Virus record (IMG/VR): IMGVR_UViG_3300022226_000008 | Coordinates: 1-47,699 of that record | DNA from: a virus | Direction: 5' to 3' (one strand) | DNA length: 47,699 bases | In this document: positions 3,948-43,622 of the stretch, piece by piece | How positions within the stretch are numbered: position 1 is the first letter of the stretch | Layout: the number at the start of each line of letters is the position of its first letter | The notes under the pieces: model-generated | Database searches by the model: none | The model's input: only the letters and a program-made list of their open reading frames with translations | Told to the model about the DNA's origin: nothing | Made by a program: the position numbers and the translations under genes

Positions 3948-4288
3948 TGGAACTATTTATTGATAATATAGATTTAACAGGAATTAAATTACCTAATAGT
4001 ATTAGAGTAGGTGCAGATTATGATGTAGATATTCTTTATACTTTAAATGGAACACCAGTTAATATAACCGGATTAACTTTAGACATTAAAGTAATAGATA
4101 ACGATTTAACAGTAATTAAAACAATTAATTTTACTATAACTGATGCGCCTAATGGCTTAGGTAATTTATCTGCTGATTTTACTGGTGCACCTGTGGGTCT
4201 TTATAAATGGCAAGGCCGCCAAATTTTTAATGGTATAGACAAGGATCTATTCTATGGTCCCTTTGAAATAGAGGAAAATTTATTATGA
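3947..4288 (+). CDS. Ig-like/BppU-N-type structural protein
   Basis: A 113-aa beta-rich protein. The pattern LPNSIRVGADYDVDILYT ... GLTLDIKVID ... APVGLYKWQGRQI ... YGPFEIEE looks like the N-terminal domain found in BppU-type baseplate or virion decoration proteins. Its position between portal and protease suggests a head-associated accessory protein. The family match is by pattern only. It overlaps the next gene by 4 bases (ATGA). Confidence 0.55.
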   Translation: MELFIDNIDLTGIKLPNSIRVGADYDVDILYTLNGTPVNITGLTLDIKVIDNDLTVIKTINFTITDAPNGLGNLSADFTGAPVGLYKWQGRQIFNGIDKDLFYGPFEIEENLL

Positions 4289-5043
4289 CAGCAATGAGTA
4301 ATTATTTAGAAAATGCTCTTTTAGATCATGTTCTTAAAAATACAGCATATACTTCTCCTACTACTGTTTATGGAAAATTACATATTGGAGATCCTGGAGA
4401 AGATTGTACTTTAAATCCTAGTACTGAAACTACTAGAGTAGCTTTAACCTTTTCACCTGCTGCTTCTAGAGTTATTACTACTAGTGCTCAAGCTGATTGG
4501 TTAAGTATTGGAGTTTCAGCACAAGAAACTATTACTTTTATAAGTATTTGGGATAATTTAACTGCTGGTAATCCCTTAGCTTATGGTTCTGCCGGTTCTA
4601 CTGTTGTAGATCCTGGAGATGATTTCTTTTTCGCTGCTGGTGATATTGATATTAGTGCAGATACTTCGATCTTTACTACATTCTTAGCTAATGCCTTGTT
4701 AGATCATGTGTTTAGAAATACTGCTTATACTCAGCCTGCTGGTTTATTTGTTAAACCTCATATAGGTGCTCCTGGATTTGATGCTACTGGTAATCCTGCT
4801 GCTGAAACTACTAGAGCTAATGCAGGTACATTTAGTGCTGCTGTAGCTGGAAGTAGTGATAATGATGCAGCTATTTCTTGGACAGCTGTTGCAGCTTCTG
4901 AAACTTGGACAGATGTTTCTATTTGGGATGCTTCTACTTTAGGTAACGCTCTTTTGATCCCTGATGTTAACCCTGATAAAGCTGTTAATGCAGGAAATAA
5001 TGTTGAGTATGCTGCTGGTGCTTTAATTCTTAATTTTGCTTAA
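4285..5043 (+). CDS. virion protein with two tandem copies of one domain
   Basis: This 252-aa protein contains an internal duplication. Copy one starts YLENALLDHVLKNTAYTSP (residue about 6) and copy two starts LANALLDHVFRNTAYTQP (about 136); each is roughly 120 residues and ends in a WLSIGVSAQETITFISIWD / WTAVAASETWTDVSIWD segment. Such domains occur singly in phage tail-fibre or decoration proteins (HIGDPG / HIGAPG motif). Likely a capsid surface protein. Overlaps the upstream gene by 4 bases. Confidence 0.6.
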   Translation: MTAMSNYLENALLDHVLKNTAYTSPTTVYGKLHIGDPGEDCTLNPSTETTRVALTFSPAASRVITTSAQADWLSIGVSAQETITFISIWDNLTAGNPLAYGSAGSTVVDPGDDFFFAAGDIDISADTSIFTTFLANALLDHVFRNTAYTQPAGLFVKPHIGAPGFDATGNPAAETTRANAGTFSAAVAGSSDNDAAISWTAVAASETWTDVSIWDASTLGNALLIPDVNPDKAVNAGNNVEYAAGALILNFA

Positions 5044-5046
5044 TAT

Positions 5047-7437
5047 ATGGCTATTCCTGTAATAGAATCATTTAATACAGCAGTAACTAGTGGGGCCACT
5101 ACTACTGTTACTGTTAATAAGCCTTCTGGTGTTGTTTCTGGTGATCTTTTAATTCTGTTAGCAGGAGTTGAAGATAGCCAGGGTACTACAGCATTTCAAG
5201 CTATTACAGGATGGACAAAAGCTTACGAACAAGGCACCACCGTTCCTGACACTCGTATCGCTATGTATTGGCGTGTTGCTACTGGTTCAGAAGGTGCTAG
5301 TGAAACTATAAATTGGGTAGTTTCTAATAATGGTGGTGCCTGGTATTTAAGAATTTCAGGAGCAGCTGATCCTTCTCCAATACATTTAGTAGGTACTGCT
5401 AATGAAGATAATCATGATCCAACTAATACTTCTTTATCATTAACAACTACTGCTGATAACTGTTTAATTTTCGCCCATATGTCTTATGATGGTGGTGACG
5501 GTTATCCATTTGCTGTTAGTGGTACAGGTTGGCCTTCAACAATTCCAGCTAATCAAGAATTACGAAATGATCCTGGAACAGGTGCATGGTCTGGTGCATG
5601 GATTAGTAGAAGTCTTGCATCACAAGGTGCTTCTAATAATTTAGTTTGGACTCATTCTACAACTGATGGTGCTGTTTCCATTCAGTTTGCTGTAGTTGAA
5701 GGTGCTGGAGGTACTGTAAATTTAACTACCAATAGCACTGGAAATATTACATTAACTGCTACAGGTTCAGTTACTAGGAAACTTAGTACCACAGATACAG
5801 CTAATATAACAGTAAGTGCTGTTGGAAATGCTACTCAATCAATAAATACTAATAGCACAGGTAACTTTACATTAACTGCTACCTCAGTAGTAATTAAATA
5901 TTTAGATACTAATAGTACTGGTAACATTACATTAAGTAGTACTGGTTCTGTATTAAGAAAACTTAACACTTCTGATACAGCTAATTTAACATTAACTGCT
6001 GTAGGGAGTGTATTAAGAGAGCTTAATACAAATTCAACAGGTAATTTAAGTTTAACTGCTACAGGTAGTGTTTTAAGAAAACTTAGTACTACAGATACTG
6101 CCAATTTTAGTTTAACTGCTGTTGGACAAAAAGTTGGTATAATTAATTTAGATACTAATAGTACAGGTAATTTAACATTAACCTCTACTGGTTCAGTATT
6201 AAGAAAGTTAAATACTACAGATACTGGTAATTTTACACTTTCTGCTATATCTGATATTATTAGAAAACTTGATACTAATAGTATAGGTAATATTACTCTT
6301 ACTGCTATAGGAGATTTATTAAGAAAACTTAATACTAATAGTACAGGTAATCTTACTTTAACAGGTATTTCAGCGGCACTTGCAAGACTTAATACAACTG
6401 ATACTGGTAACTTTACATTAACTGCTATAGGTAGTAAATCAGGGAATGTTACACTTGATACTAATTCAACTGGTAACTTAACATTAAATGCTACCGGCTC
6501 TGTAATTAGACAACTTAATACAAATTCAACAGGTAATATTACTTTAACTTCTACCAGTTCAGTTATTAGAAAACTTAATACTACTGATACTGGTAACATT
6601 TCTTTAAGTGCTACAGGTAGTGTTACTCAAACTCTTAATACTAATTCAACAGGTGATTTTACACTTACAGGTGTTAGTAATAAAACACTTAAATTAGATA
6701 CTAATAGTATAGGTAACATTACTCTTACAGCTATTGGAAGTTCTTTAACTAGATTAAATACATCTGATACTGGAAACTTTAATCTTACAGCTATTGGAAC
6801 TAAGTCTGGTAATGTACCTTTAAATACTAATTCTACTGGTAACATTACTTTAACAGCAACTGGTTTTGTTATTAGAAAGTTAAATACTACTGATAGCGGT
6901 AACTTTGTAGTAACAGCAGTAGGAAATGCTTTAAGAAAACTTAATACTAATTCTACTAGTAATTTTAATTTAATTTCAACAGGTAATGCTACTCAAACTA
7001 TTACAACAAGTTCAACCGGTGATTTTACATTAAGTTCTACTGGTTCAGTAATTAAGAAACTTGATACTAATAGTACTGGTAACTTTACAGTTTCTGCTAC
7101 AGCTACTGGAGTACATAAACTTACTACATCAGATACCGGTAATTTTAATTTAACAGTTACTAGTAGTGTTCAGGGTTATATTACTACTTCTGATACAGGT
7201 AATATAACTCTTACAGCTACTGCTAGGAATGCTACTACAGAAAGTATATTTTTAAGTTCTAAAATAAAGTTTATTAGAGTTACAAATCCTGATAAACCTT
7301 ATATAGATTATCCTAATGAAGAAATATTTACTTTAATATCAGATCCCTATAATTCTGTTAGAGTAAATCATTCTAAACCAAGGATTGTTGTAGATATGGC
7401 TAAGCCTCTTATAGAAGTAGGTTTAATAAATGACTGA
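5047..7437 (+). CDS. large repeat-rich virion adhesin/fibre-like protein
   Basis: The 796-aa protein has an N-terminal beta-sandwich-like domain of about 220 residues (ASGDLLILLAGV-type pattern, MYWRVATGSEG), then about 25 repeats of 20 residues, then a 60-aa C-terminal domain. The N-terminal domain resembles the second half of the protein at 19802-20899, so the two share a domain family. The repeat array suggests a beta-solenoid or extended stalk. Its place between portal and protease is unusual for a fibre and suggests a head fibre. It overlaps the next gene by 8 bases. Confidence 0.6.
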   Translation: MAIPVIESFNTAVTSGATTTVTVNKPSGVVSGDLLILLAGVEDSQGTTAFQAITGWTKAYEQGTTVPDTRIAMYWRVATGSEGASETINWVVSNNGGAWYLRISGAADPSPIHLVGTANEDNHDPTNTSLSLTTTADNCLIFAHMSYDGGDGYPFAVSGTGWPSTIPANQELRNDPGTGAWSGAWISRSLASQGASNNLVWTHSTTDGAVSIQFAVVEGAGGTVNLTTNSTGNITLTATGSVTRKLSTTDTANITVSAVGNATQSINTNSTGNFTLTATSVVIKYLDTNSTGNITLSSTGSVLRKLNTSDTANLTLTAVGSVLRELNTNSTGNLSLTATGSVLRKLSTTDTANFSLTAVGQKVGIINLDTNSTGNLTLTSTGSVLRKLNTTDTGNFTLSAISDIIRKLDTNSIGNITLTAIGDLLRKLNTNSTGNLTLTGISAALARLNTTDTGNFTLTAIGSKSGNVTLDTNSTGNLTLNATGSVIRQLNTNSTGNITLTSTSSVIRKLNTTDTGNISLSATGSVTQTLNTNSTGDFTLTGVSNKTLKLDTNSIGNITLTAIGSSLTRLNTSDTGNFNLTAIGTKSGNVPLNTNSTGNITLTATGFVIRKLNTTDSGNFVVTAVGNALRKLNTNSTSNFNLISTGNATQTITTSSTGDFTLSSTGSVIKKLDTNSTGNFTVSATATGVHKLTTSDTGNFNLTVTSSVQGYITTSDTGNITLTATARNATTESIFLSSKIKFIRVTNPDKPYIDYPNEEIFTLISDPYNSVRVNHSKPRIVVDMAKPLIEVGLIND
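5722..7248 (+). repeat. about 25 tandem 60-bp coding repeats
   Basis: The translated unit is close to LNTNSTGNLTLTATGSVLRK. Units alternate between an NSTGN type and a TDTGN type, giving a 40-residue super-period in much of the array; a few units carry 2-aa insertions (SKSGNVT, QKVGIIN). Synonymous divergence between units indicates an old array under protein-level constraint. Confidence 0.85.
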
Positions 7438-10115: not shown

Positions 10116-10556
10116 GTGTCATATTTAAGTAGTGATGATATACAAAATTGGCTTCAAGAGGATAAATATTCTGTAACTTCTGATGCCTTAGTTTTAGTTG
10201 ATAGAGCTAAAGATGTTATATTTACTGCTATTCATGAAAGGTATGACACTACTAGCTGGATTTCTAGAGCTACTACTCCTTCACAAGTACTTAATCTATT
10301 ATCTAAATTAACAGCTTCTTACTATTTACGTAAAATAATTAGTGAAGATGACGGTGAACATACATACGCTAATTGGTTAGAACAATCAGTAATGAAATCT
10401 GTAGAAAAAATAAGTTCTGGAGAATTTGAAATATTAGAAACTAATCCAGCTATTATAGTTGCTCCTAGTGATAGTTCTCCACATAATATATTAATTACTG
10501 CACATCTTCCTACTGATGATGATACTAGATATTTTACAGTAGATACTGAGTTTTAA
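10116..10556 (+). CDS. head-tail connector, Mu gp36/DUF1320-like
   Basis: The 146-aa protein begins SYLSSDDIQNWLQEDKY with a GTG start. It has an all-helical layout with a YYLRKIISEDDG segment, like DUF1320/gp36-type adaptor proteins that follow the capsid. It would sit under the portal. Family call is from position and helical pattern, so moderate certainty. Confidence 0.65.
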   Translation: MSYLSSDDIQNWLQEDKYSVTSDALVLVDRAKDVIFTAIHERYDTTSWISRATTPSQVLNLLSKLTASYYLRKIISEDDGEHTYANWLEQSVMKSVEKISSGEFEILETNPAIIVAPSDSSPHNILITAHLPTDDDTRYFTVDTEF

Positions 10557-11042
10557 ATGTTTAATATTGATATACAATTTATACCCACAGTTAAAGTAAT
10601 GCAAGGTAGATATGAAGCTTTTGGTATTTATGTAAATAATCTTAAAAAACCTTTAACTCAATCTGTAGAAAAAGTTTTAGTTCCAGCAATTACTAAAAAC
10701 TTTGATGTTCAAGGTAGACCTAAATGGGATGCTTTAGCACCTTCTACTGTAGAGAAAAAAGGTTTTAGTACTATTCTTTATGAAACAGGTCAATTAAGGT
10801 CTGTAGCTACAGCTAAAAGTATTTGGAAAGTTAAAACTTCTGCTGGTGTAGGTACAGCATCTGTAGATAGTTTACCTGGAGCTGAATATGGTATGTATCA
10901 TCAATCTGGATTTATAAATGCAAGAACTGGAACTGCTGTTTCTGCTAGACCTTTTATGGTAATTCAAGATGAAGAAGAAAGAGCAGTAGAAGAAGTTTTT
11001 GATGAATGGTTAGAAGATAGAATTAGACAGGTTTTTGGATGA
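10557..11042 (+). CDS. virion morphogenesis protein, Mu gpG/HK97 gp10-like
   Basis: The 161-aa protein contains FDVQGRPKWDALAPSTVEKK, LYETGQLRSVA, GAEYGMYHQSGF and SARPFMVIQDEE, the recurring blocks of phage virion morphogenesis / tail-completion proteins. It is placed correctly between connector and tail terminator. It overlaps the next gene by 4 bases. Confidence 0.82.
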   Translation: MFNIDIQFIPTVKVMQGRYEAFGIYVNNLKKPLTQSVEKVLVPAITKNFDVQGRPKWDALAPSTVEKKGFSTILYETGQLRSVATAKSIWKVKTSAGVGTASVDSLPGAEYGMYHQSGFINARTGTAVSARPFMVIQDEEERAVEEVFDEWLEDRIRQVFG

Positions 11043-11485
11043 CTACATATAAACCACAAGATGTTATAGATTATGTTTATAATCTTATAAGATCTAATTC
11101 TTCTACTTTAGGTATAAAAGGTATACATAAAGGATTTGTAACTAAATTACCTACAAGTCCTGTATTATCTATACAATCTAGTGATAGATCTAGAGATATG
11201 GTTAGTACAGGAATTCAAACAATAAATTCATTTGAAATAATAATGTTGGTTTATGCAACATTTACTAATAGTGAAGCAGCAAGAAAACTTTGTAATGATG
11301 TAAGTGATAAAGTAGAAAATCTTATATTAGATGATTATTTAACTAATAGATTAGGTACTTTAGGAGCACATTATTGTTTAATGGAGAATTTAGAACCAGG
11401 TTATGATAATTTAGAAGATGGTTTAGCTACAGTTAATAGATTAACTTTTATTATTAAAAATAAGACTCAATTATATGTTGCATAA
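11039..11485 (+). CDS. probable tail terminator / minor tail protein
   Basis: A 148-aa protein with a mixed alpha/beta pattern (YKPQDVIDYVYNLIRSNSS ... NSFEIIMLVYATFTNSEAA ... TVNRLTFIIKNK). Size and position before the tail tube match tail terminator or neck proteins (lambda U-like). No catalytic motif seen. Confidence 0.6.
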   Translation: MTTYKPQDVIDYVYNLIRSNSSTLGIKGIHKGFVTKLPTSPVLSIQSSDRSRDMVSTGIQTINSFEIIMLVYATFTNSEAARKLCNDVSDKVENLILDDYLTNRLGTLGAHYCLMENLEPGYDNLEDGLATVNRLTFIIKNKTQLYVA

Positions 11486-11493
11486 GGAGTATT

Positions 11494-11787
11494 ATGGGCT
11501 ATTTGGTTATTAACCAAATTAATCGTCCTCATGAAGATAAAATTATAGTCGCTGGTAAAGGTTTGTTTGCTAATGGCTTTAAATATGAAGTGGATTGGGT
11601 TGAAGATGATTATCAAATAATAGGCTCAATTCCAGAAGATTGTTATGTAAAATTTGAAAATAGGGGTGGAGAACAAAAAAGCCTTGTTGATGATATTTTA
11701 GTGTCTCAATGGGTTAAAACACTACCTATCTATTCTGAAGAAGAAGAAGAAGAAGAAACTATTACTACTGAAAGTGAGGATGAATAA
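11494..11787 (+). CDS. small tail-region protein of unknown function
   Basis: A 97-aa protein between the tail terminator and tail tube. The body is beta-like (IIVAGKGLFANGFKYEVDWVEDDYQ) and the last 17 residues are almost all Glu, Thr and Asp. A Shine-Dalgarno-like AAGGAG precedes the ATG. The TAATG junction couples it to the tail-tube gene. Unknown function. Confidence 0.55.
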   Translation: MGYLVINQINRPHEDKIIVAGKGLFANGFKYEVDWVEDDYQIIGSIPEDCYVKFENRGGEQKSLVDDILVSQWVKTLPIYSEEEEEEETITTESEDE

Positions 11788-12722
11788 TGCCAGTTGCAAT
11801 TGGTGCATCTAGTATTGTGGGTATAGCTTTAGAAGTTACAAAGGGAACTTATTTAGCCCCTACTAAATTTATACCTGTAAATAGTTCTAGTATGATGTTT
11901 AATCAAGAACAGATTAAACGTAGACCTATTCAAGGTGTTGCAGATACAGTTCAATCTGTTCCTGGTCCTGCTATTGTTGAAGGTGATATAGAATTTGATG
12001 TTTTACATGATATTCTTCCTTACTTTCTTTTAGCAGCTAGAATGGATGTTACTAAAACTGGTGTAGGTCCGTATTCTTATGAATTTGTTCCTAATCATGT
12101 TGCTGAACCTGCTGCTACACTTAGAAGTTTAAGTATTACAGAGGTTAAGAATGGTCAAGTTTTTGGTTATTCTGGTTGTGTAGTTGCTTCTATGGATTTT
12201 TCTGTAGAAGATGGAATGCTTAAATGTTCACTTTCTATTATGGGTGAAGATGAATCAGAGCCATCATTACCTGTAGCTACTTGGCCTACTTCACTTCCTT
12301 TTGCTGCTGGAGATTATACTCTTAATTATAATGCTGTATCTACTAATGATACTGATGATCTTACATTTAGTATTGATAATGGTGCAGAAGCAGCTTATCG
12401 TATTGAAGGTACTAATGCTGCATCTTTCATTTATTTTGGTGAAAGAACTATTACTGCGTCAATGTCAAGAGACTTTTTAAATAGAACTGAATATAATAAT
12501 TATAAGAATGCTACTGCACAGGATCTTGATTTTACTGCATCTGATGGTGTTAATTCAGTTGTTATAGATTTACCTTTAATTGTTGCAGATAAGTATGAAA
12601 TTCCTATTGAAGGTCAAGGCGATCTTATTATGGCCTCTGTGGATTATGAAGGTTCATATGATTTTGCAACTAGTCGTGCTGCTACTATTACAGTTAATAC
12701 TGATGAAGATATTACTGTTTAA
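11787..12722 (+). CDS. major tail tube protein
   Basis: The 311-aa protein has the classic start of siphophage tail-tube proteins: GIALEVTKGTYLAPTKFIPV, then a stretch with FNQEQIKRRPIQGVADTVQ and VEGDIEFDVLHDILPYFL. It lies directly upstream of the frameshifted chaperone pair and tape measure, which fixes the assignment. The C-terminal part ends in TVNTDEDITV. Confidence 0.85.
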   Translation: MPVAIGASSIVGIALEVTKGTYLAPTKFIPVNSSSMMFNQEQIKRRPIQGVADTVQSVPGPAIVEGDIEFDVLHDILPYFLLAARMDVTKTGVGPYSYEFVPNHVAEPAATLRSLSITEVKNGQVFGYSGCVVASMDFSVEDGMLKCSLSIMGEDESEPSLPVATWPTSLPFAAGDYTLNYNAVSTNDTDDLTFSIDNGAEAAYRIEGTNAASFIYFGERTITASMSRDFLNRTEYNNYKNATAQDLDFTASDGVNSVVIDLPLIVADKYEIPIEGQGDLIMASVDYEGSYDFATSRAATITVNTDEDITV

Positions 12723-12756
12723 TTAAAAATCCCTTAGTCGTGAAAAGGAAAAAATA

Positions 12757-13143
12757 ATGCCTGTTGTTAGAGTTAGTGTTAGTACAGAAACCTTTACTTT
12801 AAAATCTGCTCCTCCTGATGGATTTGTTGAGTTAAGACAAATGTCTTATGGAGATAAACTTCATCGTCAAGGTTTAGCGATGGAAGGTGCATCTAACGAA
12901 AATGAAGAAATGACGCTTCGTATGATGCAAAAAAGAGCTACTCAATTTGATTTTAAAAAGTGTATAGTTAAACATAATTTAGAATATGAAGAAGGTAAGC
13001 CTTTTGATTTTACTAATCCTGCTACTTTAGATATGTTAGATCCTAGAGTTGGTGAAGAAATTTCAGGATTAATTGATGATTTAAATAATTTTGATGCTAC
13101 TAAGAATGAGGCAGAACCTACTTCTTTAAAAGAAGAATCATAA
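12757..13143 (+). CDS. tail assembly chaperone (G-like product)
   Basis: The 128-aa protein between tail tube and tape measure corresponds to lambda gpG. It contains FVELRQMSYGDKLHRQGLAM and a CIVKHNLEYE segment, a pattern seen in tail chaperones. Its last codons include the slippery site T TTA AAA at 13125-13131. A Shine-Dalgarno AAAAGGA lies upstream at 12740-12752. Confidence 0.85.
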   Translation: MPVVRVSVSTETFTLKSAPPDGFVELRQMSYGDKLHRQGLAMEGASNENEEMTLRMMQKRATQFDFKKCIVKHNLEYEEGKPFDFTNPATLDMLDPRVGEEISGLIDDLNNFDATKNEAEPTSLKEES

Positions 13144-13358
13144 ATCATATTATATATAATAAAAAAGAAACTAAATACAATGACGTATCTTTCTATATAA
13201 ATTTATATAATATGTGTAAAGAATTTAATTGTTTACCACAACCAGGATCTTTATTAGATCAAGATTGGTATATGGTTTATGCTTTGCAATGTGTTGCTGA
13301 AGGTAATTCTATAAAACAAGAGCAAGAAAACAGACGGGCTAAGAGAAGAAAGAAATAG
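12757..13358 (+). CDS. tail assembly chaperone frameshift fusion (GT-like)
   Basis: A -1 slip at TTTAAAA (13125-13131, zero frame T TTA AAA) joins the first 125 codons to a second open frame running 13131-13358, giving a fusion of about 200 aa. The extension encodes RRIINHIIYNKK, a Cys-containing middle, QDWYMVYALQCVAEG, and a basic end ENRRAKRRKK, and stops one base before the tape-measure ATG. The extension has no good start of its own. This matches the conserved G/GT arrangement of long-tailed phages. Confidence 0.88.
13125..13131 (+). promoter_or_regulatory. -1 ribosomal frameshift slippery sequence TTTAAAA
   Basis: The heptamer fits X XXY YYZ in the correct frame (T TTA AAA), five codons before the zero-frame stop at 13141-13143. 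After slippage the frame stays open to 13358. A downstream AT-rich helix (TATTATATATAATA near 13146-13160) may act as stimulator but is weak. Confidence 0.85.
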
Positions 13359-16300
13359 ATGGCTTTCACTGGTAGAGAACTTTTAATAGTGTTAAGAGCT
13401 AGAGATGAAGCTTCTCGTGTTATTCGTACTGTTAATACTAATCTTGGTGCTCTTAATAGAATGCAAACAGTTCCTAAAGGAGCTACTGCTGATCAAAAAG
13501 CATTAATTGAACAATATAATAATCAAGTTAGACAACAACAATTGCTAGCACAGCAATATACTTCTGCTGGTCAAGGATTAGTAGCTTTAGGTTCTAGTGC
13601 TATAGTTGCTGGTGGTTTAACAACTAAATTCTTTTCTGATTCAACTAAAGATGCACAAAATTATAATAAACAAGTAGCACTTACACAAACTCAGACTAGA
13701 GATTTAGGTATTACTTTTGAAGAGCTACAAAAAATTGGTAAAAGTACATCCTCTGCAATCCCTGTTGACTTTTTAGAAACTCAGCAGGGATTGTATGATA
13801 TCTTTTCTACTATTGATGTTAGTGGTGCTGCTGAAGCGGAATCGGTATTACAGCAATTATCTAAGGCTTCTGTAGCTGGTGATGCTGATTTACGTACTGT
13901 TGCTAGAACTTCTTTAGCTACTATGAATGCATGGGGAGTAGGTGCAGAAGGTTTAGGAGAAATATTAGATACTCAGCAATTAATTGTTAATTATGGTGCT
14001 GGTGAATTAGAAGAATTTTCAGCTGCATTAGGTAAAGGTATTCCCACAGCTAAAGCAGCAGGACAAGAATTTAGAACTTATGCAGGTATTGTTACTTTCT
14101 TAACTAAACAAGGTCTTAATGCTAATAGAGCTGTAACTGCTACTCAAAGAGGTATAGAATTATTAGGTAGACCTAAGAATTTTAAAGCATTAAAGAAAAT
14201 TGGTGTTGATGTATTTGATCCTATGACTGGTTCAATGCGTCAAGCTGACGATATTTTATATGATTTAGCCTATAATGCTGGTTGGGCTAAAATGTCAGAT
14301 AAAGATCGTAAACAAGCATTTGCTGATATATTTGGTTTAGGTACACCTAAAGCTAGAGAATTCTTTGATGCTGTTATTAGTAATATGGATGATTTTATAC
14401 CTTTAATGGATGAATTCCAAAATGATGCTAATGCTATGGAAAAAGCATATGATATTATGTTTAAAGATCCAGCTAATCAAGCTCAGTTATTAAGTAATAA
14501 ATATAAAGAAATGAAAACTGAAATTGGTGATGCATTAATTCCTGCTAAGCTTAAATTAATGCAAACAATAATGAGATTACTTGATTGGTGGAATGGACTT
14601 GATGAAGGTACTAGAAGTTTAATAGTTAAATTTGTTGCAATAACAGGTGCTATAATAACTGTTATAGGTGTTGTTACTACTTTATTAGGTATCTTTTTCC
14701 TTTTTAAAGGTGCATTACTTGCTGCTGGTATAACAATGACTATGTTTGCAGGTATTACTTTAGGAATGATAGCGGCTATAGCAGCAGTAATAGCTATAGG
14801 TTACTTACTTTATAAGAATTGGGATACAGTTAAAGCTATATTACTTCCTATATGGGATGCTATTAAAGCTAAAGCTATAGAAGCTTTTGAATACTTTCAA
14901 ACAAATATACTTCCTAAACTTATTGAGTTTAAAGATAGCTTTATAAGACTTATGCAAGAATTATGGGCATTTATACAGCCCATATTAGAGACTATAGTTA
15001 CAGGAGTAAGAGCTTTTATAGATACTTGGAAGTCTGGAACAGATGAAATTACTGCTTCTGGATTTGTAGGATTTATGCAGCAATTAGCTGTATTTATTAG
15101 AGATACAGTTATACCTACATTAATTGAATTAGGTACTTGGCTATTTAATACTGGTAAAGCAATTGCAGAAGCTGCTATAGAATTTGGTGTTACAGCTTAT
15201 GGTTACATTCAAGATTTCTGGACTAAAATACAAGAAGTTTGGGGATGGTTAAGCTCTACATTTGGTCCTGGAATAATAGAAATATGGAATACTCTTAAAG
15301 AAGAAGGTCAATCTCTTTGGGAAGCAACTAAAGAGTTTATTGGCTTTATGAAAGAAGAATGGGATAAATTTAAACAAGATTTAGATGCAGCTATAACATT
15401 TGTTAAGGCCCTGTGGGATGGTTTATTTCCTTATATTAAAGCTGTTTGGGATTTAATTTCAGGATTAATAAGTGCTGCAATTAAATTTATAGGAGATGTT
15501 ATAAGAGTAGGCTTTAATTTAATTTGGGATAATATTAAAGCTGTATGGGAATTTATTAAAGATACAATTAAAGCAGCCTGGACTTTTATAGTAGCACTTG
15601 CAACTAATGGAATTAGATTACTTTCTAATGTAATTCAATTAGTTATGAATATCATTAGAGGTAATTGGTCTGGAGCTTGGAATAATATTTTAGCTATATT
15701 TAGATCTATTAATAATATGATTTTAGCTACTGGTAGATTCTTGATGACCATGCTATGGAATATTATTAAATTAGGATTTAGATTAATAATAGCTGGTATT
15801 AAGGCTTTATTTGGTTTATTCTTTGCAGCAGGCAAACTTATTTTAAGAGGGTTATGGTCAGGTATTAAAGCTGTTTGGGCTTTAACTGCTGCATGGTTTA
15901 GAGGATTACCTGGTAAAATTAAAGGATTTTTCTCTGGTGCAGGAAGTTGGTTAGTTAGTATAGGTAAGAGTATTATAAGTGGTCTTATAAGAGGTATTGT
16001 TTCTAAATTTAGTGGACTTAAATCTAGTTTAAGTGGTTTAAAGAGTAAAATTACTAGTTGGAAAGGTCCTCCAGCAGTAGATAAAAAATTGCTTATTGAT
16101 AATGGTAAACTTATTATGCAAGGTTTAGAAACAGGTTTAGTAAGTGGTTATAGTAATGTTAAATCTACATTACAACAACTTACTACTCAAGCTAAATTTA
16201 TGCCTAATGTATCATTACAAGCACAAGTACCAAAATCTATTCCTTACTCTAATAATTTAAGTGATGATCCTACATTAAAAGTAATAGATTTATTAGAGCA

Positions 16301-17224: not shown

Positions 17225-17998
17225 ATGTCAATATATCCAAAAGCTAAAGTACGTTTACTTCCAGAAAGTGAATATCAAGCTAAAATTATACCTGATCAAT
17301 TTATTTTCCATACTGCTGTAGATGGAAGAGGACCTTCTGATCTTAGAAACTTTTTTGAGCAGTCTGGCTTAGAATCTCATTTCTGGATTCCTTGGAGTGG
17401 TGAAGTTCATCAATTCATAGATACTGAAGTTAGAGCCGATGCGAATTATAAAGCAAATCGTCGTCCTAACGGTCATGGTGCTATTTCTGTTGAAACAGAA
17501 GATGACGGCAATCCTGAAGCGAATCCTTGGAATCAAAAACAAATAGATGCTTTAATTGATCTAGGTAGATGGGTAGTAGATGAACATAATATTCCAACTG
17601 TTTATTGTCCTACTTGGGATAGTCCTGGTTTTGGTTGGCATGCTATGTGGTCTTTTGACGATCCTATTAAACAGGTTGGAACAAAAAAATCCCTTTGGAC
17701 TCCATCCTTTGGTAAAACGTGTCCTGGAAAAACTAGAATTTATCAAATTAGAACAATAATTTTTCCAGCTATAGCATCTATTATAACTCCTACAGATGAA
17801 GAACTTTACATAAAGCGCATTCAAGAAGCTTGTAATAGGGCAGGTGCTAATATTTCTGTAGATGGGATTATAGGCCCTAATACTACAGTTGCTGTTGAAA
17901 ATATGTCTACTAATCTTATTGGTTGTATAAAAAATAATCAAGATAAGACATTTGCTCTAAATGAAATTAATAGAATATTAGGGGAATTAGATGGCTGA
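17225..17998 (+). CDS. N-acetylmuramoyl-L-alanine amidase with peptidoglycan-binding domain (endolysin or tail lysin)
   Basis: The 257-aa protein has an Amidase_2/PGRP fold: FIFHTAVDG (first zinc His near residue 29), SHFWIPWSGEVHQFID, SVETEDDG (Glu), FGWHAMWS (second His) and GKTCPGKTRIYQ, whose Cys would be the third zinc ligand. Residues 195-240 match a peptidoglycan-binding domain (IQEACNRAGANISVDGIIGP). It is the only lysin seen. It lies inside the tail-tip genes rather than beside the holins, so it may be virion-associated as well as lytic. The layout is common in actinophages. Confidence 0.9.
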   Translation: MSIYPKAKVRLLPESEYQAKIIPDQFIFHTAVDGRGPSDLRNFFEQSGLESHFWIPWSGEVHQFIDTEVRADANYKANRRPNGHGAISVETEDDGNPEANPWNQKQIDALIDLGRWVVDEHNIPTVYCPTWDSPGFGWHAMWSFDDPIKQVGTKKSLWTPSFGKTCPGKTRIYQIRTIIFPAIASIITPTDEELYIKRIQEACNRAGANISVDGIIGPNTTVAVENMSTNLIGCIKNNQDKTFALNEINRILGELDG

Positions 17999-18674: not shown

Positions 18675-19802
18675 ATGGCTAAACTTAATGAATATACTTT
18701 TATAGTAACCAAAATTTTAACTGGTGAAATTATAAATGTTGTAGATCTTAGTTCTTTTTATTGGGAAGATATTTATTTAGCTCCTGGTGAAGCTCAAGCT
18801 ACAGCTAGATTAGATTTACCTACAACAACTACAGAAAATTTTGCTGATTGGGAAAATATGTTATGGGCTGTAAAAGGAAATTCAATTAAATTTGGAGGTA
18901 TAATAGGTAAAACACAAAGAAGAGCCGGATCTAGAGTATTAAATGTTCCTATACATGGCCTGTGGGGATATTTTAGGGACCGCTTTTTAAAAAATGCAGA
19001 TGGAATGACTTATGGTAAATTAGTTAGATCTAATGAAGTTGAATGGCGTAATGTAGATTATTTTCATATTGTAGAAGATGTTATTAATCATACTAAAGCA
19101 TTCCAAAATGGTGATATTGGAGTTGATGTTGTATATGATTCTTTATCAGGTCAAACAGCTACTAAAATACACCGTACATATTCTAGAAAAAGAATAGCTA
19201 GAATTGTAGAAGAATTATCAGTTAGATTAAATGGTTTTGATTTTAGAATTGAATATTATTGGCAAGGAAATATTCCTAAAGCTAGATTAAGATTAGATTA
19301 TCCAGCTCATAAAATTACATCTACAGATTTATTATTACATCAAACACAATATTTTAAGAATGAATCTATAGCTATATTAAAAGCTATTGATTTAGATGGT
19401 ATATCTGATATTTCAACTAGTACAACTATAAGTGTTTCAGGTGATTTAACATTAATTTTAAATCTTAAATTACCAGATTGGACTCCTACAATAAATCTTG
19501 TATTAAATAAAAAATGGATAGAAGTAACAAATCAAAGGTCTTGGCGTTTTACATTATTAACCACAGGGCAATTGCAATTAGAATGGTCTACTGACGGTAC
19601 AGCTGGTACAGTTATTACAGAAGTATCAGATAATCCTAATTTATTAATTGATAATGAAGAAGGTTATATTCAAGTTTATTTAGATGTAGATGATGGTGCA
19701 GGAAGTTATGCTATAGAATTTTTCTATAGTACTGATGGACAAAATTGGATTCCTTTACAAGGTCCTAGACAATTTGGAGATGAGTTCGGAGATGAATTTT
19801 AA
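18675..19802 (+). CDS. Gp37-like tail protein, N-terminal part, ending in half of a lectin domain
   Basis: Residues 1-230 of this 375-aa protein (YTFIVTKILTGEIINVVDL, FGGIIGKTQRRAGSRVLNVPIHGLWGYF, YHIVEDVINHTKAFQ) resemble the N-terminal half of ReqiPepy6 Gp37-like tail proteins. Residues 235-375 begin a LamG/concanavalin-like lectin (VLNKKWIEVTNQRSWRF, VYLDVDDGAGSYAIEFF) that stops at STDGQNWIPLQGP. The missing half of the lectin appears at the start of the protein at 22485-23141. See findings. Confidence 0.65.
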   Translation: MAKLNEYTFIVTKILTGEIINVVDLSSFYWEDIYLAPGEAQATARLDLPTTTTENFADWENMLWAVKGNSIKFGGIIGKTQRRAGSRVLNVPIHGLWGYFRDRFLKNADGMTYGKLVRSNEVEWRNVDYFHIVEDVINHTKAFQNGDIGVDVVYDSLSGQTATKIHRTYSRKRIARIVEELSVRLNGFDFRIEYYWQGNIPKARLRLDYPAHKITSTDLLLHQTQYFKNESIAILKAIDLDGISDISTSTTISVSGDLTLILNLKLPDWTPTINLVLNKKWIEVTNQRSWRFTLLTTGQLQLEWSTDGTAGTVITEVSDNPNLLIDNEEGYIQVYLDVDDGAGSYAIEFFYSTDGQNWIPLQGPRQFGDEFGDEF

Positions 19803-20899
19803 TGGTTAGTTCTGATTTAGGATCTATAGATTTACAAGATACAGATACTGGACATACTAATGGTCCTTGGGGACATGATGTTCTTAATGATTGGATGGAT
19901 ATTGCAACACGTCCGGCTAGTACTCAAGATATAACACATTCTGTAGCTGGAGGTTTAACTATAAATGTTAACCAAGGTCACATTATTAATGTTGAAGTAC
20001 AAGCAAATATTACAGGATTAACTGTTAACAATCTTGTTGAAGGACATCCAATCTTACTAATTCTTAAGGGTGATGGTGTAGGTACCTATACCGCAAATAT
20101 GAGTAGTATATGGATTAATCCAACTACAACTTTAAACAGTTCATTACAAGTTTTAAATAATGACGTACATCATATAATGTTTAGTAAGGGTCCATCTATT
20201 ATAGGAAGTAAACTTTGGGCACCTGCTGGTGTTGTAACATGGGCTGTTACAGCTTCTTCTCCTGGTATTCAGTTACAATCTACAAATCAGTATTTGTATA
20301 ATGGTTCTTTTAATACTACACATACAATACCACTTCCATCAGGTATTCAATCAGGAGACTTTTTACAGATAATAGTCGCAACACAAGAGAATGCTGACTT
20401 TACTATACCTAATACACCTTCTGGATGGACTCAACATTCTACTTATCATAATGGTGTTGGATTCATTCCAAGAGTAACTACATTCTATAAGATTGCTACA
20501 GGAGGTGAAGGTTCATCTGTTAATGTTACCTGGGCGACATCTATTAGAGTGCATGGTGTATCTCATAGATGGTCTGGTGTTAATGCTACTACTCCTTATG
20601 ATATTGCAGATAGTGCTCCACAATATGGATATCTTTATGCAGATGTTGATATTCCTTCTATCACACCTGTAACTGATGGAGCTGTAGTTCTAACAATATT
20701 TGCTGCTAACTTAACTGGAGGTCTTTCTAATAGTTTGCCTTCTGGTTATTCGATAGTTGATGATACTACTTCATCAGATAGATTCTTTAAGAATGGACAA
20801 AAAGAAATACCTACAGCTACTGCTGAAAATCCTGGTTTATATAGTGGTACTGATTTTGATAATGGTACAGCGTTTGCCATGACATTAAGGCCTGCATAA
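19802..20899 (+). CDS. tail receptor-binding/adhesin-like protein
   Basis: The 365-aa protein has an N-terminal part (residues 1-150) with a fibre-tip-like beta pattern (QDITHSVAGGLTINVNQGH) and a C-terminal beta-sandwich domain (IQSGDFLQIIVATQEN, TTFYKIATGGEGSSV) that is related by pattern to the N-terminal domain of the protein at 5047-7437. It probably contacts the host surface. It overlaps its neighbours by one base on both sides. Confidence 0.55.
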   Translation: MVSSDLGSIDLQDTDTGHTNGPWGHDVLNDWMDIATRPASTQDITHSVAGGLTINVNQGHIINVEVQANITGLTVNNLVEGHPILLILKGDGVGTYTANMSSIWINPTTTLNSSLQVLNNDVHHIMFSKGPSIIGSKLWAPAGVVTWAVTASSPGIQLQSTNQYLYNGSFNTTHTIPLPSGIQSGDFLQIIVATQENADFTIPNTPSGWTQHSTYHNGVGFIPRVTTFYKIATGGEGSSVNVTWATSIRVHGVSHRWSGVNATTPYDIADSAPQYGYLYADVDIPSITPVTDGAVVLTIFAANLTGGLSNSLPSGYSIVDDTTSSDRFFKNGQKEIPTATAENPGLYSGTDFDNGTAFAMTLRPA

Positions 20900-22473
20900 T
20901 GCCTCTTATAGATTATGGTGCAGCACTTACATACGATCGTAGGCCATTAGTAGGTCTTACTGGTTCTGCTGGTGGTGGTTCTAAGGGTTTTAGGACATTA
21001 GCTAGTCCTGGTTCTATTACATATCCTATTACACCATCTAGAGAAGTTCTTAAAGCACAAGCATTACGTATAGTAACTGTATCTACTCCTACACAATGGG
21101 ATAATGCAGTATCTAACTCAAAAGCTGGAGACTTCATTGATGTAGTTAGTACTATATCAAGATCTGGAGGATTTAATTATAGGGGAAGTAAATGGAATAT
21201 AAAACTTTCCAATGGTGGAGCTAATGGAACTGCTGCTAATCCTGTAGTTATTTCTTGTGCACCTGGAGTATTCTTTGATGGTGGAGGATTGAATACATTT
21301 GAACCTGCACTTGATATAAACAATGTAGATTATGTTTGGGCAGTAGATATAAACGTTCGTAATTCAACATTTGGTTTTCGTTCCATGAATGTTGAAGGCG
21401 ATAATACTAATCGTGTTAGATTCGCAAGAATGTACGCTGAAAATATTGGCTATTCTGCATTTGTATTTCAAGGATGGTGGCAAGAATTAGATATTTATGA
21501 TCCTGCAAATACTAGACCTGCTGGTGAAGAATTTAGTTATGGGTATACAAGATATTTTATAGTTGAAGGTTGCTACGCTTCTAGTGCAGGATTAATTAAT
21601 ACTCAGTTTGGTGAAAGCTTTTACTTTGGTAGAGGTTCTGCTCCCGGTTGGGTAGGTTGGGCATCTGATGGTATAATAAGATTTAATGTTGCAGAAAATT
21701 TTACTGCTGATGGAATTGAACTTAAGCCAGGTTGTGAAAGAATTACTGGTTATGGAAATATAGCTAGATATGGAAGAATGCATTTTGGTGCTGCTTACAA
21801 TCTTCTTTATGTCAGTGGTGGAATTGATGATAGACCTACATGGCGTTCAGGTGATCCAGAAATTTATTGGGAACAAAATAGATGCTATGATTTAAATATT
21901 TCCAAAACTTCAGGCACTACAGGACATTGGCCTATCAAAGTTGGTCTTGCTGGTTGTAGAGTTGCCAATAATGAAGTTTGGTCTTGGAGAGATGCTAACG
22001 GTAATTTTGGTACAGCAGATACTTTGTTTAGAGCTATACGTGTCCAAATAGAAAAACCTGTAGCTCAATTTGGCACACATCCTACTTGGATTATTAACAG
22101 CACATTTTGGGGTGGAGGTGTTGATAATTTTGGTTCTGGAGGTACTCCAATTACAGCATTAAATGGTGCCGTAGATCTTGATTTACGAAATAATCTTGTA
22201 CCTGTGGGATATAATGGAGGAACACACACTGCTGATATAAATGGAGCCGATTTTGCTGGTCCTAATCCTGCTGTAGGACAATTAAGTGAAGCTGATTGGA
22301 ATTCTCAAGGTCCAGGTTCTGCATTCAATCTTGATGATGCTACTTCTTTAGCTGATACAGGATCTAGTATTGCTGACTTGACATTAAAGCTTGGTAGTGA
22401 AGATATATTTCGACGTACAATTGATACAGACCCTGAACCAGGAGCTTTTCAATTATCTTTTGAAGCAGCTTAA
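20899..22473 (+). CDS. right-handed beta-helix tail protein (pectate-lyase-like)
   Basis: The 524-aa protein has the pattern of a parallel beta-helix polysaccharide-binding or -degrading tailspike: AVSNSKAGDFIDVVSTIS, ANPVVISCAPGVFFDGGG, YVWAVDINVRNSTFGFR, then Asn-rich coils with GWASDGIIRFNVAENFTADGI. Catalytic residues cannot be assigned by eye. It may degrade or bind host surface glycans. It sits in the insertion that separates the two lectin halves. Confidence 0.65.
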   Translation: MPLIDYGAALTYDRRPLVGLTGSAGGGSKGFRTLASPGSITYPITPSREVLKAQALRIVTVSTPTQWDNAVSNSKAGDFIDVVSTISRSGGFNYRGSKWNIKLSNGGANGTAANPVVISCAPGVFFDGGGLNTFEPALDINNVDYVWAVDINVRNSTFGFRSMNVEGDNTNRVRFARMYAENIGYSAFVFQGWWQELDIYDPANTRPAGEEFSYGYTRYFIVEGCYASSAGLINTQFGESFYFGRGSAPGWVGWASDGIIRFNVAENFTADGIELKPGCERITGYGNIARYGRMHFGAAYNLLYVSGGIDDRPTWRSGDPEIYWEQNRCYDLNISKTSGTTGHWPIKVGLAGCRVANNEVWSWRDANGNFGTADTLFRAIRVQIEKPVAQFGTHPTWIINSTFWGGGVDNFGSGGTPITALNGAVDLDLRNNLVPVGYNGGTHTADINGADFAGPNPAVGQLSEADWNSQGPGSAFNLDDATSLADTGSSIADLTLKLGSEDIFRRTIDTDPEPGAFQLSFEAA

Positions 22474-22484
22474 AGGAATATTTT

Positions 22485-23141
22485 ATGCCTACTACAAGTA
22501 TATTTAATGGAAACGCACCTGTGGAAATTGGAGAATTAACCACAGGACAAATTCTTTGGTATCAAATTAAAGATTCTACTGGAGTTATAGCATTCTTAGA
22601 TGCTAGAACATTAGAAACTGGCATAACATCATTTACAGATACTATAGGTAATTTATGGACATTAAATAATAATGCTACTGTAATAGATTATATAACTAAA
22701 ATAATAGTTGTTAGTTCTGCATTAAGTAGAACATCTAATATTATAGATTATGATAATGCAGGAACAGATAAACCTGTTACAGCTTTAACTTTAGTAGGTG
22801 CTGGAGAAGGTAATGATATGCTTCTTGAAGAAGTATCATCTTTAGGTAATATACCTTTAATAGAAAGTAAATTAATTGCTAAAGATGAAACAGAATCTGA
22901 GAATTTAATTTCTATTGGTGAAAGATATTTAGCTACTTTAAGTAATGTTAATAAAAAATATAAATTAAACTTAGATCCTAATTTATCTCCTAGAATAGAT
23001 GATCTTAAAACAGGTGATTTTATTAGAGTAGTGATTAATGATAACTTTATTCAAGAAGATGATTTGTTTTATGTAGGTTTAAAAAGAGTTACTTTAAGCG
23101 AACAACAAGATGAAATAATAACTTTAGAGGTAACTGAATAA
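22485..23141 (+). CDS. second half of lectin domain plus Gp37-like C-terminal part
   Basis: Residues 1-65 of this 218-aa protein (TTSIFNGNAPVEIGELTTG, AFLDARTLETGITSFTD, GNLWTLNNNATV) read like the second half of a LamG-type lectin. Residues 95-218 (LTLVGAGEGNDMLLEEVSS, IGERYLATLSNVNKKYKLNLD, LKTGDFIRVVI) look like the C-terminal half of ReqiPepy6 Gp37-like tail proteins. It carries two CCTGTGG copies in opposite orientation at 22518 and 22540. It has a Shine-Dalgarno AAAGGAA upstream. Confidence 0.65.
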   Translation: MPTTSIFNGNAPVEIGELTTGQILWYQIKDSTGVIAFLDARTLETGITSFTDTIGNLWTLNNNATVIDYITKIIVVSSALSRTSNIIDYDNAGTDKPVTALTLVGAGEGNDMLLEEVSSLGNIPLIESKLIAKDETESENLISIGERYLATLSNVNKKYKLNLDPNLSPRIDDLKTGDFIRVVINDNFIQEDDLFYVGLKRVTLSEQQDEIITLEVTE

Positions 23142-41793: not shown

Positions 41794-41795
41794 AG

Positions 41796-41870
41796 TAGGG
41801 CCACTGGGATTTGAACCCAGAATCCAGACATTATGAGTGTCTTGCTTTAACCTGATTAAGCTATAGCCCC
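41796..41870 (-). tRNA. tRNA with CAU anticodon (Met or Ile2)
   Basis: A full 75-nt cloverleaf on the - strand: acceptor GGGGCTA/TGGCCCT with two G-U pairs, anticodon stem AGACA/TGTCT with loop CTCATAA (anticodon CAU), T arm CTGGG-TTCAAAT-CCCAG, discriminator A, no encoded CCA. In this AT-rich phage a lysidine-modified Ile2 tRNA reading AUA would fit the other two tRNAs better than a Met tRNA, but the sequence alone does not decide. Confidence 0.9.
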
Positions 41871-41880
41871 AAAACTCTAA

Positions 41881-42109
41881 TTAATTAGTTCCTACATAAA
41901 TATAAGACCAAAAATCACAATCCCAATACCCAGTAATACAAATATACATTTTCCATTGTCCTATACCTGAAATAGGTCCTCTTTCTTTAACAGAACCACA
42001 GGAATTTGCTGTTTGATACCAAATTTGTGAACCTGAATATAATTACTATAAATATTTGAAAACTATCGACCCAATTAAGACCCTGTGGTTGTATGTTATG
42101 AGCTATCAT
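41881..42109 (-). pseudogene. probable frameshifted gene remnant
   Basis: One frame starts MIAHNIQPQGLNWVDSF at 42109 and a different frame continues YSGSQIWYQTANSCGSV ... GQWKMYICITGYWDCDFW and ends YIYVGTN at 41881. The second part has coding-like, Trp/Tyr-rich composition but no start. Two frame changes near 42040-42060 would join the parts. It could be a decayed gene or a sequencing error. Confidence 0.45.
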
Positions 42110-42239
42110 TTTCCTGTTCTATTCTTTCGTAAATTTTTCTAGCTGATTCAATTTGTTTTTGTGTAGGTTTAATTTCTTCTGCTTTTCGCTTATCTTCTTT
42201 AGCTAATTCTCTACCTTTTTTAATATCTTTACTACTCAT
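42096..42239 (-). CDS. 47-aa charged helical protein
   Basis: Product SSKDIKKGRELAKEDKRKAE continues with KPTQKQIESARKIYERI; highly charged. It overlaps its neighbours by a few bases in the style of this array. Unknown function. Confidence 0.45.
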   Translation of the reverse strand: MSSKDIKKGRELAKEDKRKAEEIKPTQKQIESARKIYERIEQENDSS

Positions 42240-42351
42240 TGTTTTCCTCTGGAATTTCTTCTGGTTGTTTATGTCCTGGTGGACTAGCTGGAGGAACTTT
42301 AGGTAATTTTTCTCTTAAAGGATTTTTTGGTTTTTTATCATCATCAGCCAT
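42232..42351 (-). CDS. 39-aa Pro/Lys/Glu-rich protein
   Basis: Product with MADDDKKPKNPLREKLPKVP, then SPPGHKQPEEIPEE; probably disordered. Overlaps neighbouring genes by 8 bases on each side. Expression is inferred only from packing. Confidence 0.4.
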   Translation of the reverse strand: MADDDKKPKNPLREKLPKVPPASPPGHKQPEEIPEENNE

Positions 42352-42610
42352 CTAAATACTCTGCAATCATTGTAAGAACTTTATCTATTTCAATTAAAAG
42401 TTCTGTAGCATCTTTTTTAGGTTCAATTTTTCTAAGATTCTGCATTCTATGTAAACCTAAACCTAGATCCTTTTCATATTTTACTACTATTTTCCAATAA
42501 CCATCAGAATTATCCCATAATGGTGGACTTACTATAGTGCATGTATTACCATGAGTCGATAATACTCTTTCACCAATTGAATATTCATTTACATCTCTAT
42601 AAGTTTCCAT
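42344..42610 (-). CDS. small SH3-like barrel protein
   Basis: An 88-aa protein: YSIGERVLSTHGNTCTIVSP, YWKIVVKYEKDLG, then a helical tail (DATELLIEIDKVLTMIAEYL). Beta-barrel plus helix. Preceded by tRNA-Leu. Unknown role. Confidence 0.55.
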   Translation of the reverse strand: METYRDVNEYSIGERVLSTHGNTCTIVSPPLWDNSDGYWKIVVKYEKDLGLGLHRMQNLRKIEPKKDATELLIEIDKVLTMIAEYLDG

Positions 42611-42642
42611 TTTAATTATTCTCCTTTTTTTTAATTCTACAG

Positions 42643-42726
42643 TACTCCTGGAGGGGATCGAACCCTCACGGTATTTCTACCACAAGATTTTAAGTCTTGC
42701 GCGTCTGCCAATTCCGCCACAGGAGC
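42643..42726 (-). tRNA. tRNA-Leu (UAA anticodon)
   Basis: An 84-nt type II tRNA on the - strand: acceptor GCTCCTG/CAGGAGT, anticodon stem CAAGA/TCTTG region with loop CTTAAAA (UAA), a short variable arm (TGGTAGAAATACCG), T arm GAGGG-TTCGATC-CCCTC, discriminator A, no encoded CCA. It contains a CCACAGG at 42717. It reads UUA, a very common codon here. Confidence 0.93.
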
Positions 42727-42733
42727 AAATCCA

Positions 42734-42937
42734 TTATTTTTCTATACTTTCAATTACTTTATCAATAAGATCTTTAACTTGTTCAAAATGTGAAACTATC
42801 ATATCTTCAGTGAATGGAGTAGTATTTTTATAAATTCTAAAATTAGAATATCTTTTAAACGCAAGTTCTAATTGTGCTTGTGTAATTTCTTTAATACTAC
42901 CAACATATGAAATAGTTCTATCTTTTTCAGTATCCAT
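42734..42937 (-). CDS. unknown small protein
   Basis: A 67-aa protein (ISYVGSIKEITQAQLELAF, IVSHFEQVKDLIDKVIESI) lying 7 bases from the tRNA-Leu 5' end. No family recognised. Confidence 0.5.
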   Translation of the reverse strand: MDTEKDRTISYVGSIKEITQAQLELAFKRYSNFRIYKNTTPFTEDMIVSHFEQVKDLIDKVIESIEK

Positions 42938-42939
42938 TT

Positions 42940-43038
42940 TTATTTGTTCCTTTTCATTATTGAAATTATTATTATGTATATTACAGCTATTATTGTATAA
43001 GCAATTACTGCTTTAGCAAAACTAGGATCATAATACAA
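42940..43038 (-). CDS. 32-aa membrane protein, TTG start
   Basis: One hydrophobic segment (VIAYTIIAVIYIIIISIM) with basic C-terminus (KRNK). TTG start is one base after the previous stop with AGAGGA upstream, a layout shared with the 36298 start. Role unknown. Confidence 0.45.
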   Translation of the reverse strand: MYYDPSFAKAVIAYTIIAVIYIIIISIMKRNK

Positions 43039-43039
43039 A

Positions 43040-43276
43040 TTAAATCGTGTCCTCTTTTAACAAAGAACCACAGGCATTACAAAACCAACATCGGACAAAT
43101 GCGCCACCTTTTAGTAATTCATATTTAGTATACATATCTGTCCAATGTTTAAATTTGCTACAGGTTTTGCAGATTCTACCCTTGTGGGTTTTTTGCGCAA
43201 GTAATTTATTTATGTTTCTTAGATAGTCTTTTTCCGATTCTGTTATTTGATTCGATATTGATGACTTTTCGTCCAC
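43040..43276 (-). CDS. zinc-ribbon protein
   Basis: A 78-aa protein with RICKTCSKFKHW and CWFCNACG, at least five Cys in ribbon spacing. GTG start inside the upstream gene (71-base overlap); no other usable start is visible, so the N-terminal part is uncertain. Confidence 0.6.
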   Translation of the reverse strand: MDEKSSISNQITESEKDYLRNINKLLAQKTHKGRICKTCSKFKHWTDMYTKYELLKGGAFVRCWFCNACGSLLKEDTI

Positions 43277-43433
43277 AGTTGCACCAGTGCCATTTAATTT
43301 GTCCGTTTTTTATATAATAATTTAGAAGTTGAGGACTTATGCCAATATATCTAGCATAGTCGGAAAAAGTTAAATCTGTCGCACCTTCAAAATCATTATT
43401 GATTATATATTCAAACTCTTTTTCGGTAATCAT
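43206..43433 (-). CDS. helix-turn-helix-like protein
   Basis: A 75-aa protein with LTFSDYARYIGISPQLLNYY, which reads like a MerR/excisionase-type helix-turn-helix, then a WHWCNCG Cys pair and a basic C-terminus. Candidate transcriptional regulator or endonuclease-like DNA binder. Confidence 0.6.
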   Translation of the reverse strand: MITEKEFEYIINNDFEGATDLTFSDYARYIGISPQLLNYYIKNGQIKWHWCNCGRKVINIESNNRIGKRLSKKHK

Positions 43434-43442
43434 AAAATGGAA

Positions 43443-43543
43443 CCACTAGGAAAGAATATAGCCCAATGATGCGAGGATTGGACATTTTATATGAATAAGG
43501 AAAAAGGGTATAAACCTTATACTTTTTCATTCTTTCCTAGTGG
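43443..43543 (-). ncRNA. large structured RNA element beside tRNA-Arg
   Basis: A perfect 15-bp inverted repeat CCACTAGGAAAGAAT (43443-43457) / ATTCTTTCCTAGTGG (43529-43543) encloses smaller stems (CCAAT/ATTGG at 43463-43481; ATAAGG/CCTTAT and GAAAAAG/CTTTTTC around 43495-43527). The 101-nt element lies between the gene at 43206 and the tRNA-Arg and could be a processed RNA or a terminator/processing site. Confidence 0.65.
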
Positions 43544-43547
43544 TAAG

Positions 43548-43622
43548 TACCCTAGGCAGGATTTGAACCTGCAACCTACAAATTAGAAGTTTGTCGCTCT
43601 ATCCAAATTGAGCTACTAGGGC
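43548..43622 (-). tRNA. tRNA-Arg (UCU anticodon)
   Basis: A 75-nt tRNA on the - strand: acceptor GCCCTAG/CTAGGGT, D arm AGCTCAATTTGGATAGAGC, anticodon stem ACAAA/TTTGT with loop CTTCTAA (UCU), T arm GCAGG-TTCAAAT-CCTGC, discriminator A, no CCA encoded. It reads AGA, a frequent codon in this genome. Confidence 0.94.

Follow-up and report, generated by a model that had tools for sequence, protein, structure and literature searches.

A phage baseplate hub gene divided within a nested LamG domain by two inserted genes

In a 47.7 kb virus record, two genes that lie 2.7 kb apart (hereafter referred to as A and D) encode the N-terminal and the C-terminal parts of one baseplate hub protein. The break between them falls within a LamG domain that is itself nested in the hub, and two further genes, B and C, occupy the gap. 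We regard this anatomy as close to certain. The reading that we favour, to which we assign a probability of roughly 0.7, is that the hub gene underwent fission and that the A and D products would co-assemble as a two-chain hub, in which the LamG domain would be completed in trans.

Results

Organization of the locus

The whole record was analysed and is called the window below. Its tail genes are arranged in the order tape measure, Dit, amidase, a gene for a 227-residue protein, A, B, C and D. An open reading frame check returned for A to D the same coordinates as an earlier sequence-only reading of this DNA. In the product of gene A (18675–19802, 375 amino acids), the N-terminal part of a baseplate hub precedes the N-terminal half of LamG; in that of gene D (22485–23141, 218 amino acids), the C-terminal half of LamG precedes the C-terminal hub part. 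Between them lie the adhesin-like gene B (19802–20899, 365 amino acids) and gene C (20899–22473, 524 amino acids), whose product has no recognised family.

All four genes are on the plus strand and their starts overlap or are closely spaced, so that one message probably serves for the translation of all four. A GGAG at 19788–19791, located in the DNA for the last residues of A, has a spacing that fits a ribosome-binding site for the B ATG. D has a ribosome-binding site of its own, AGGAATATTTT (22474–22484, plus strand), with an AGGA close upstream of its ATG, and an upstream extension of D is impossible because a stop codon occurs in its frame just before 22464.

Elsewhere in the window, the amidase gene (17225–17998), which lies among the tail genes, after Dit and before the hub, also encodes a peptidoglycan-binding domain; its product may be a tail-associated lysin or an endolysin. 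Three phage tRNA genes (Met-cat, Leu-taa and Arg-tct) are found on the minus strand at 41795–43622.

A and D match complementary parts of the same families

We compared A and D with PHROG 5313, a family whose members bear LamG. Residues 240–363 of A aligned to profile positions 237–356, and residues 3–67 of D to positions 363–435. The joined chain aligned in one stretch (240–429 to 237–434) with an E-value of 4.7e-13, as compared with about 1e-3 for each half. We also constructed two profiles, one for the hub from 34 intact sequences and one for LamG from intact domains, leaving the window sequence out of both to avoid circularity. The hub profile matched A over positions 5–202 (62.0 bits) and D over positions 232–328 (35.0 bits), and the joined chain scored 93.7 bits. 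The LamG profile matched A over positions 15–126 (80.0 bits) and D over positions 134–210 (28.9 bits); a full LamG with the conserved motifs was obtained only on joining A and D (112.1 bits, positions 15–210 of 217). The best of 1000 shuffled A/D controls reached 8.7 bits with the LamG profile and 5.4 bits with the hub profile, and none of the other open reading frames of at least 60 amino acids, taken over all six frames of the window, reached 5 bits with either profile.

These sequence comparisons, taken together, confirm on two independent layers that A and D correspond to one protein, A to its N-terminal and D to its C-terminal part. The break is real by the same comparisons: it lies in mid-domain, the matches are collinear and their scores are far above chance. 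Two domain levels are interrupted, LamG being nested in the baseplate hub and the break being within LamG. The sequence-only reading had proposed that the outer genes are two halves of one tail protein, cut within LamG by an insertion of about 2.7 kb that carries two genes, and each element of this proposal was supported, the insertion measuring 2718 bp. Homologues in which each chain is complete in itself were sought and not found; the proteins related to A are entire hubs, and none related to D stands alone.

Fold and family of the divided protein

PHROG 1885, annotated as ‘minor tail protein’, matched A with an E-value of 1.4e-27 and also matched 23 of 24 relatives. The ‘Gp37-like’ label that had been given to the protein was not upheld, as no tail-family model of Pfam matched A or D, separately or joined, or any of the 24 relatives.

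The AlphaFold2 model of A was built from an alignment of 26 homologous stretches, from which the LamG rows were dropped except that of a single relative, L077. Block means of pLDDT were mostly 88–96 for residues 11–210, and residues 213–255 were of low confidence. The LamG half in this model of A alone was incomplete and was also predicted with low confidence (pLDDT about 50–75), which fits an unfinished domain but fits a decayed one as well. Foldseek searches with the model retrieved the hubs of diffocin, Mu (gp44), Bxb1 and Douge and also VgrG, with E-values down to 2e-6, and the model of an intact relative retrieved the same kinds of structure with E-values down to 4e-16. The hub fold is thus recognised from both models, and the fold of the divided protein is that of a gp27/Mu gp44-type hub of PHROG 1885. 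Unlike the hubs of its relatives, it is encoded not as a single chain but in two open reading frames 2.7 kb apart.

The break point and the insertion site of LamG

The N-terminal part of the hub, as delimited by the hub profile and by pLDDT, corresponds to residues 5–211 of A (18687–19307). The N-terminal half of LamG follows at residues 250–361 (19422–19757) and, by alignment and profile, ends after the strand ...EFFYSTDGQNWIPL. Alignment to intact LamGs stops just before the last 11 residues of A (RQFGDEFGDEF, 19767–19799), which are non-homologous. Comparison of the joined homology with the sequence places the inserted segment between the LamG halves at 19767–22484. The C-terminal half of LamG (TTSIFNGNAPVEIG ... 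FTDTIGNLWTLNN), delimited by PHROG, alignment and profile, occupies 22488–22682, and the profile-aligned core of the C-terminal hub part occupies 22776–23054; all of these features are on the plus strand.

When aligned to intact LamGs, A ends with ...FFYSTDGQNWIPLQGP and D starts with MP-TTSIFNGNAPVEIG. Set against the family pattern W..LGdp(t.sg)TTSIFN, these ends indicate that about 4–7 residues are missing from a loop between two strands, and the loss at the break amounts to no more than about 7 of the 217 LamG positions. Both halves retain LamG motifs, with 23–38% identity to intact LamGs.

The joined A and D sequence reads as one collinear hub with an insert of about 225 residues that bears LamG. 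Without this insert the hub is 356 amino acids long, inside the range of its intact relatives. The insert enters at a single alignment point, between ...NYYxTES and xxxTNVFxxGxGEG. When the intact relative L129 was modelled with AlphaFold2 (mean pLDDT 88.3), this point fell in the loop between strands 217–225 and 232–236.

The inserted genes

Residues 160–294 of B contain a domain that is also found at the N-terminus of the window protein encoded at 5047–7437 (E-value 7e-11), and they weakly match minor tail proteins of Curtobacterium and Rhodococcus phages. C had no match in Pfam, NCBIfam or phage records, its PHROG match was non-significant (E-value 0.29) and its PDB matches were at the chance level; the earlier description of C as a beta-helix was made by eye only, and no library confirmed it. 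Neither B nor C resembles an endonuclease, an integrase or a transposase, and no nuclease match was obtained for either of them in Pfam, PHROGs or NCBIfam. B and C probably encode further tail adhesins or fibres. Two other genes of the adhesin or fibre type are situated between the portal and protease genes: that at 4285–5043 encodes a tandem pair of PF23140 ‘GP4 fiber I gp80’ domains (5.8e-55), and that at 5047–7437 encodes 796 amino acids with many tandem repeats (TNSTGNITLTATGSV...).

The GC content of B and C is raised chiefly at the first and second codon positions, and their fourfold-degenerate GC3 (0.06) equals that of A, D and the genome. The insertion is therefore not visibly recent, and the composition gives no support to B and C having come recently from a foreign source. 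A and D have a codon bias among the strongest of the structural genes in the window, and both this bias and their fourfold GC3 are as in working genes. Scans for promoters and terminators remained at the chance level.

Several other accounts of the inserted segment were considered and rejected. For an excisable or phase-variable cassette, the longest words common to the two ends were 8 nt (direct) and 9 nt (inverted), lengths that occur in 26% and 6%, respectively, of random window pairs. A 10-nt word common to the start of B and to D was judged to be due to chance. For an intron, no Rfam match was obtained in 19400–22800 at E-values up to 1. For an intein, the continuation of A past the LamG homology is too short to be an intein part, and rejoining by frameshifting or read-through would have to span 2.7 kb with two full genes and no RNA family. 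In a homing-endonuclease split, one gene with intact relatives comes to encode two chains, as was found here, but the insert encodes no endonuclease.

Relatives and the ancestral state

Relatives were collected by terminase and major-tail-protein searches. Where the sequence extends to the tail tip, as it does in 35 relatives of one set and eight of the other with four shared, the hub is encoded in one frame; a few of the 35 hubs in the first set are cut by contig ends. Among these approximately 40 related phages and proviruses, all with one unbroken frame, none has LamG in the hub. A provirus-like scaffold of bacterium UASB270 has a single hub frame of 353 amino acids, gp15 of TG1 and gp46 of phiBT1, both Streptomyces phages, are likewise one-frame hubs without LamG, and 400 genomes scanned from a single phylum yielded two hub matches, each within a single open frame. 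These comparisons indicate that the one-chain, LamG-free hub is ancestral and that the split is derived.

Neither an unsplit hub bearing LamG nor a second phage with the same split was found among the relatives or in the IMG/VR scans, so that the order of events, LamG first and then B and C, is based on parsimony and is not proved. IMG/VR scans with A, D and Dit as single proteins returned no relatives, those with the exact junction patterns returned no sister contig, and the scan for the LamG pair returned solely the contig of L077. LamG does occur elsewhere in the tail regions of relatives: L085, L086 and L105 carry it in the gene that immediately precedes the hub gene, and L077 has it in a 1211-residue open reading frame. 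Its presence in these other tail genes points to a mobile tail domain, and LamG seems, by its distribution in these sequences, to move among tail-tip proteins.

The searches also returned an IMG/VR contig, 3300022307_000076 (4393 bp), with 100% identity to window 10403–14795, which we interpret as the same phage assembled a second time. Two terminase relatives with 58–59% identity lie in bacterium UASB270 and in a SAR202 MAG; this is a hint, from terminase likeness, at the hosts of this phage group.

Discussion

We propose that a one-chain hub of the gp27/Mu gp44 type first gained a LamG domain, of the ConA-like kind, in a loop between two beta strands. The co-directional genes B and C would then have been inserted into a loop of LamG, generating A (hub N-terminal part and LamG N-terminal half) and D (LamG C-terminal half and hub C-terminal part). 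The two products would be translated separately from one tail operon and would afterwards pair non-covalently, the N- and C-terminal parts completing the hub fold and the two halves completing the LamG sandwich in trans. Three such A–D pairs would form a normal trimeric hub. The new chain ends lie in a loop of the nested, putative lectin, away from the hub strands, which would explain why the cut could be tolerated.

The split of an essential hub would normally be lethal, and it is carried here by one genome only. The insertion could accordingly have inactivated the hub recently, leaving a defective or non-infectious genome in which A and D are decaying pseudogene fragments. We consider this improbable, since both genes are free of stop codons, keep their LamG and hub motifs and have a strong codon bias, D has a ribosome-binding site and a start exactly at the LamG loop, and so few positions were lost at the break. 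The record is a metagenomic one from IMG/VR, and its A–D junctions occur in no other contig of the collection, as would be seen if the assembly of a strain mixture had joined two phages and thereby placed B and C in the hub gene. Such a chimera is very unlikely: it would need two independent junctions in the same LamG loop, each with an overlapping stop and start or a ribosome-binding site, and the synonymous composition of B and C is that of the genome. The identical 4.4 kb contig backs the phage but not the A–D region.

A further possibility is that the gene was subdivided functionally, with the lectin lost, the LamG halves serving as mere linkers and the N- and C-terminal hub parts docking by themselves. 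In the relatives these parts do belong to one compact fold, so that docking without the lectin is possible. However, the LamG halves, with their 23–38% identity to intact LamGs, are kept as well as or better than the hub, with 13–23% identity, which argues for continued constraint on LamG and leaves this possibility with little probability. Gene fission followed by co-assembly of A and D is thus the reading that we retain.

The closest precedents are phage genes split by homing endonucleases, such as the T4 topoisomerase genes 60/39, split with mobA, and Aeh1 nrdA, split with mobE (PMC2988022). They share with the present case a conserved gene that is cut by inserted DNA and expressed as two separately translated chains. 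The chains can work together: split Aeh1 nrdA yields a fully functional enzyme, and the products of the split DNA polymerase genes 43A/43B of Aeromonas phage 25 co-purify (PMC2988022). In those cases, however, it is an enzyme that is interrupted, by a selfish endonuclease gene or by untranslated sequence (PMC2988022), whereas here two putative virion genes cut a structural protein within a nested lectin-like domain. Gene fission by insertion is thus already known; within the literature that we searched, the site, a nested lectin of a tail hub, and the virion-type cargo appear to be new.

The PHROG 1885 hubs examined (TG1 gp15, phiBT1 gp46 and the IMG/VR relatives) share with the divided hub the family, the insert-free length and the position after the tape measure and Dit genes, but they are single chains without LamG, whereas in this phage the hub has received LamG and its gene is split in two. 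Nested domains are known in hubs. The Douge hub core (residues 42–147 and 487–560) is interrupted by a peripheral domain (148–368) (PMC13033339). The hubs of Douge and Bxb1 resemble the one described here in having a long extra domain nested in the core, but each is one chain, and the likeness is confined to the nesting, implying neither the same insertion site nor LamG identity (PMC13033339). In the two-chain legume lectins of pea and Lathyrus, a ConA-like sandwich is formed by two non-covalently associated chains (PMC6359319); such a sandwich can therefore hold together as two chains. Those are the two chains of one plant lectin, whereas here a domain nested in a hub is cut by inserted genes.

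Whether the arrangement has a use of its own is a matter for speculation. The LamG loop might be a tolerated docking site, the split lectin a non-covalent clasp between two hub chains and the gene interior a slot for the gain and exchange of receptor-binding genes, with the hub persisting as A–D pairs, but we consider this improbable. The related suggestion of the sequence-only reading, that the split allows fibre exchange, gained no backing, for the insert has no flanking repeats and no foreign synonymous composition, and no variant copy was seen.

Baseplate hubs are essential, and the hub is one chain in every relative examined. If our reading is correct, A and D must co-purify and both must be present in the virion. 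The phage would then have a two-chain hub, divided inside a nested lectin domain by virion-type genes and not by a selfish nuclease, and gene fission would be seen to reach the core of the tail tip. Such a hub would also serve as a natural experiment on the extent to which hubs and ConA-like sandwiches tolerate being built from pieces.
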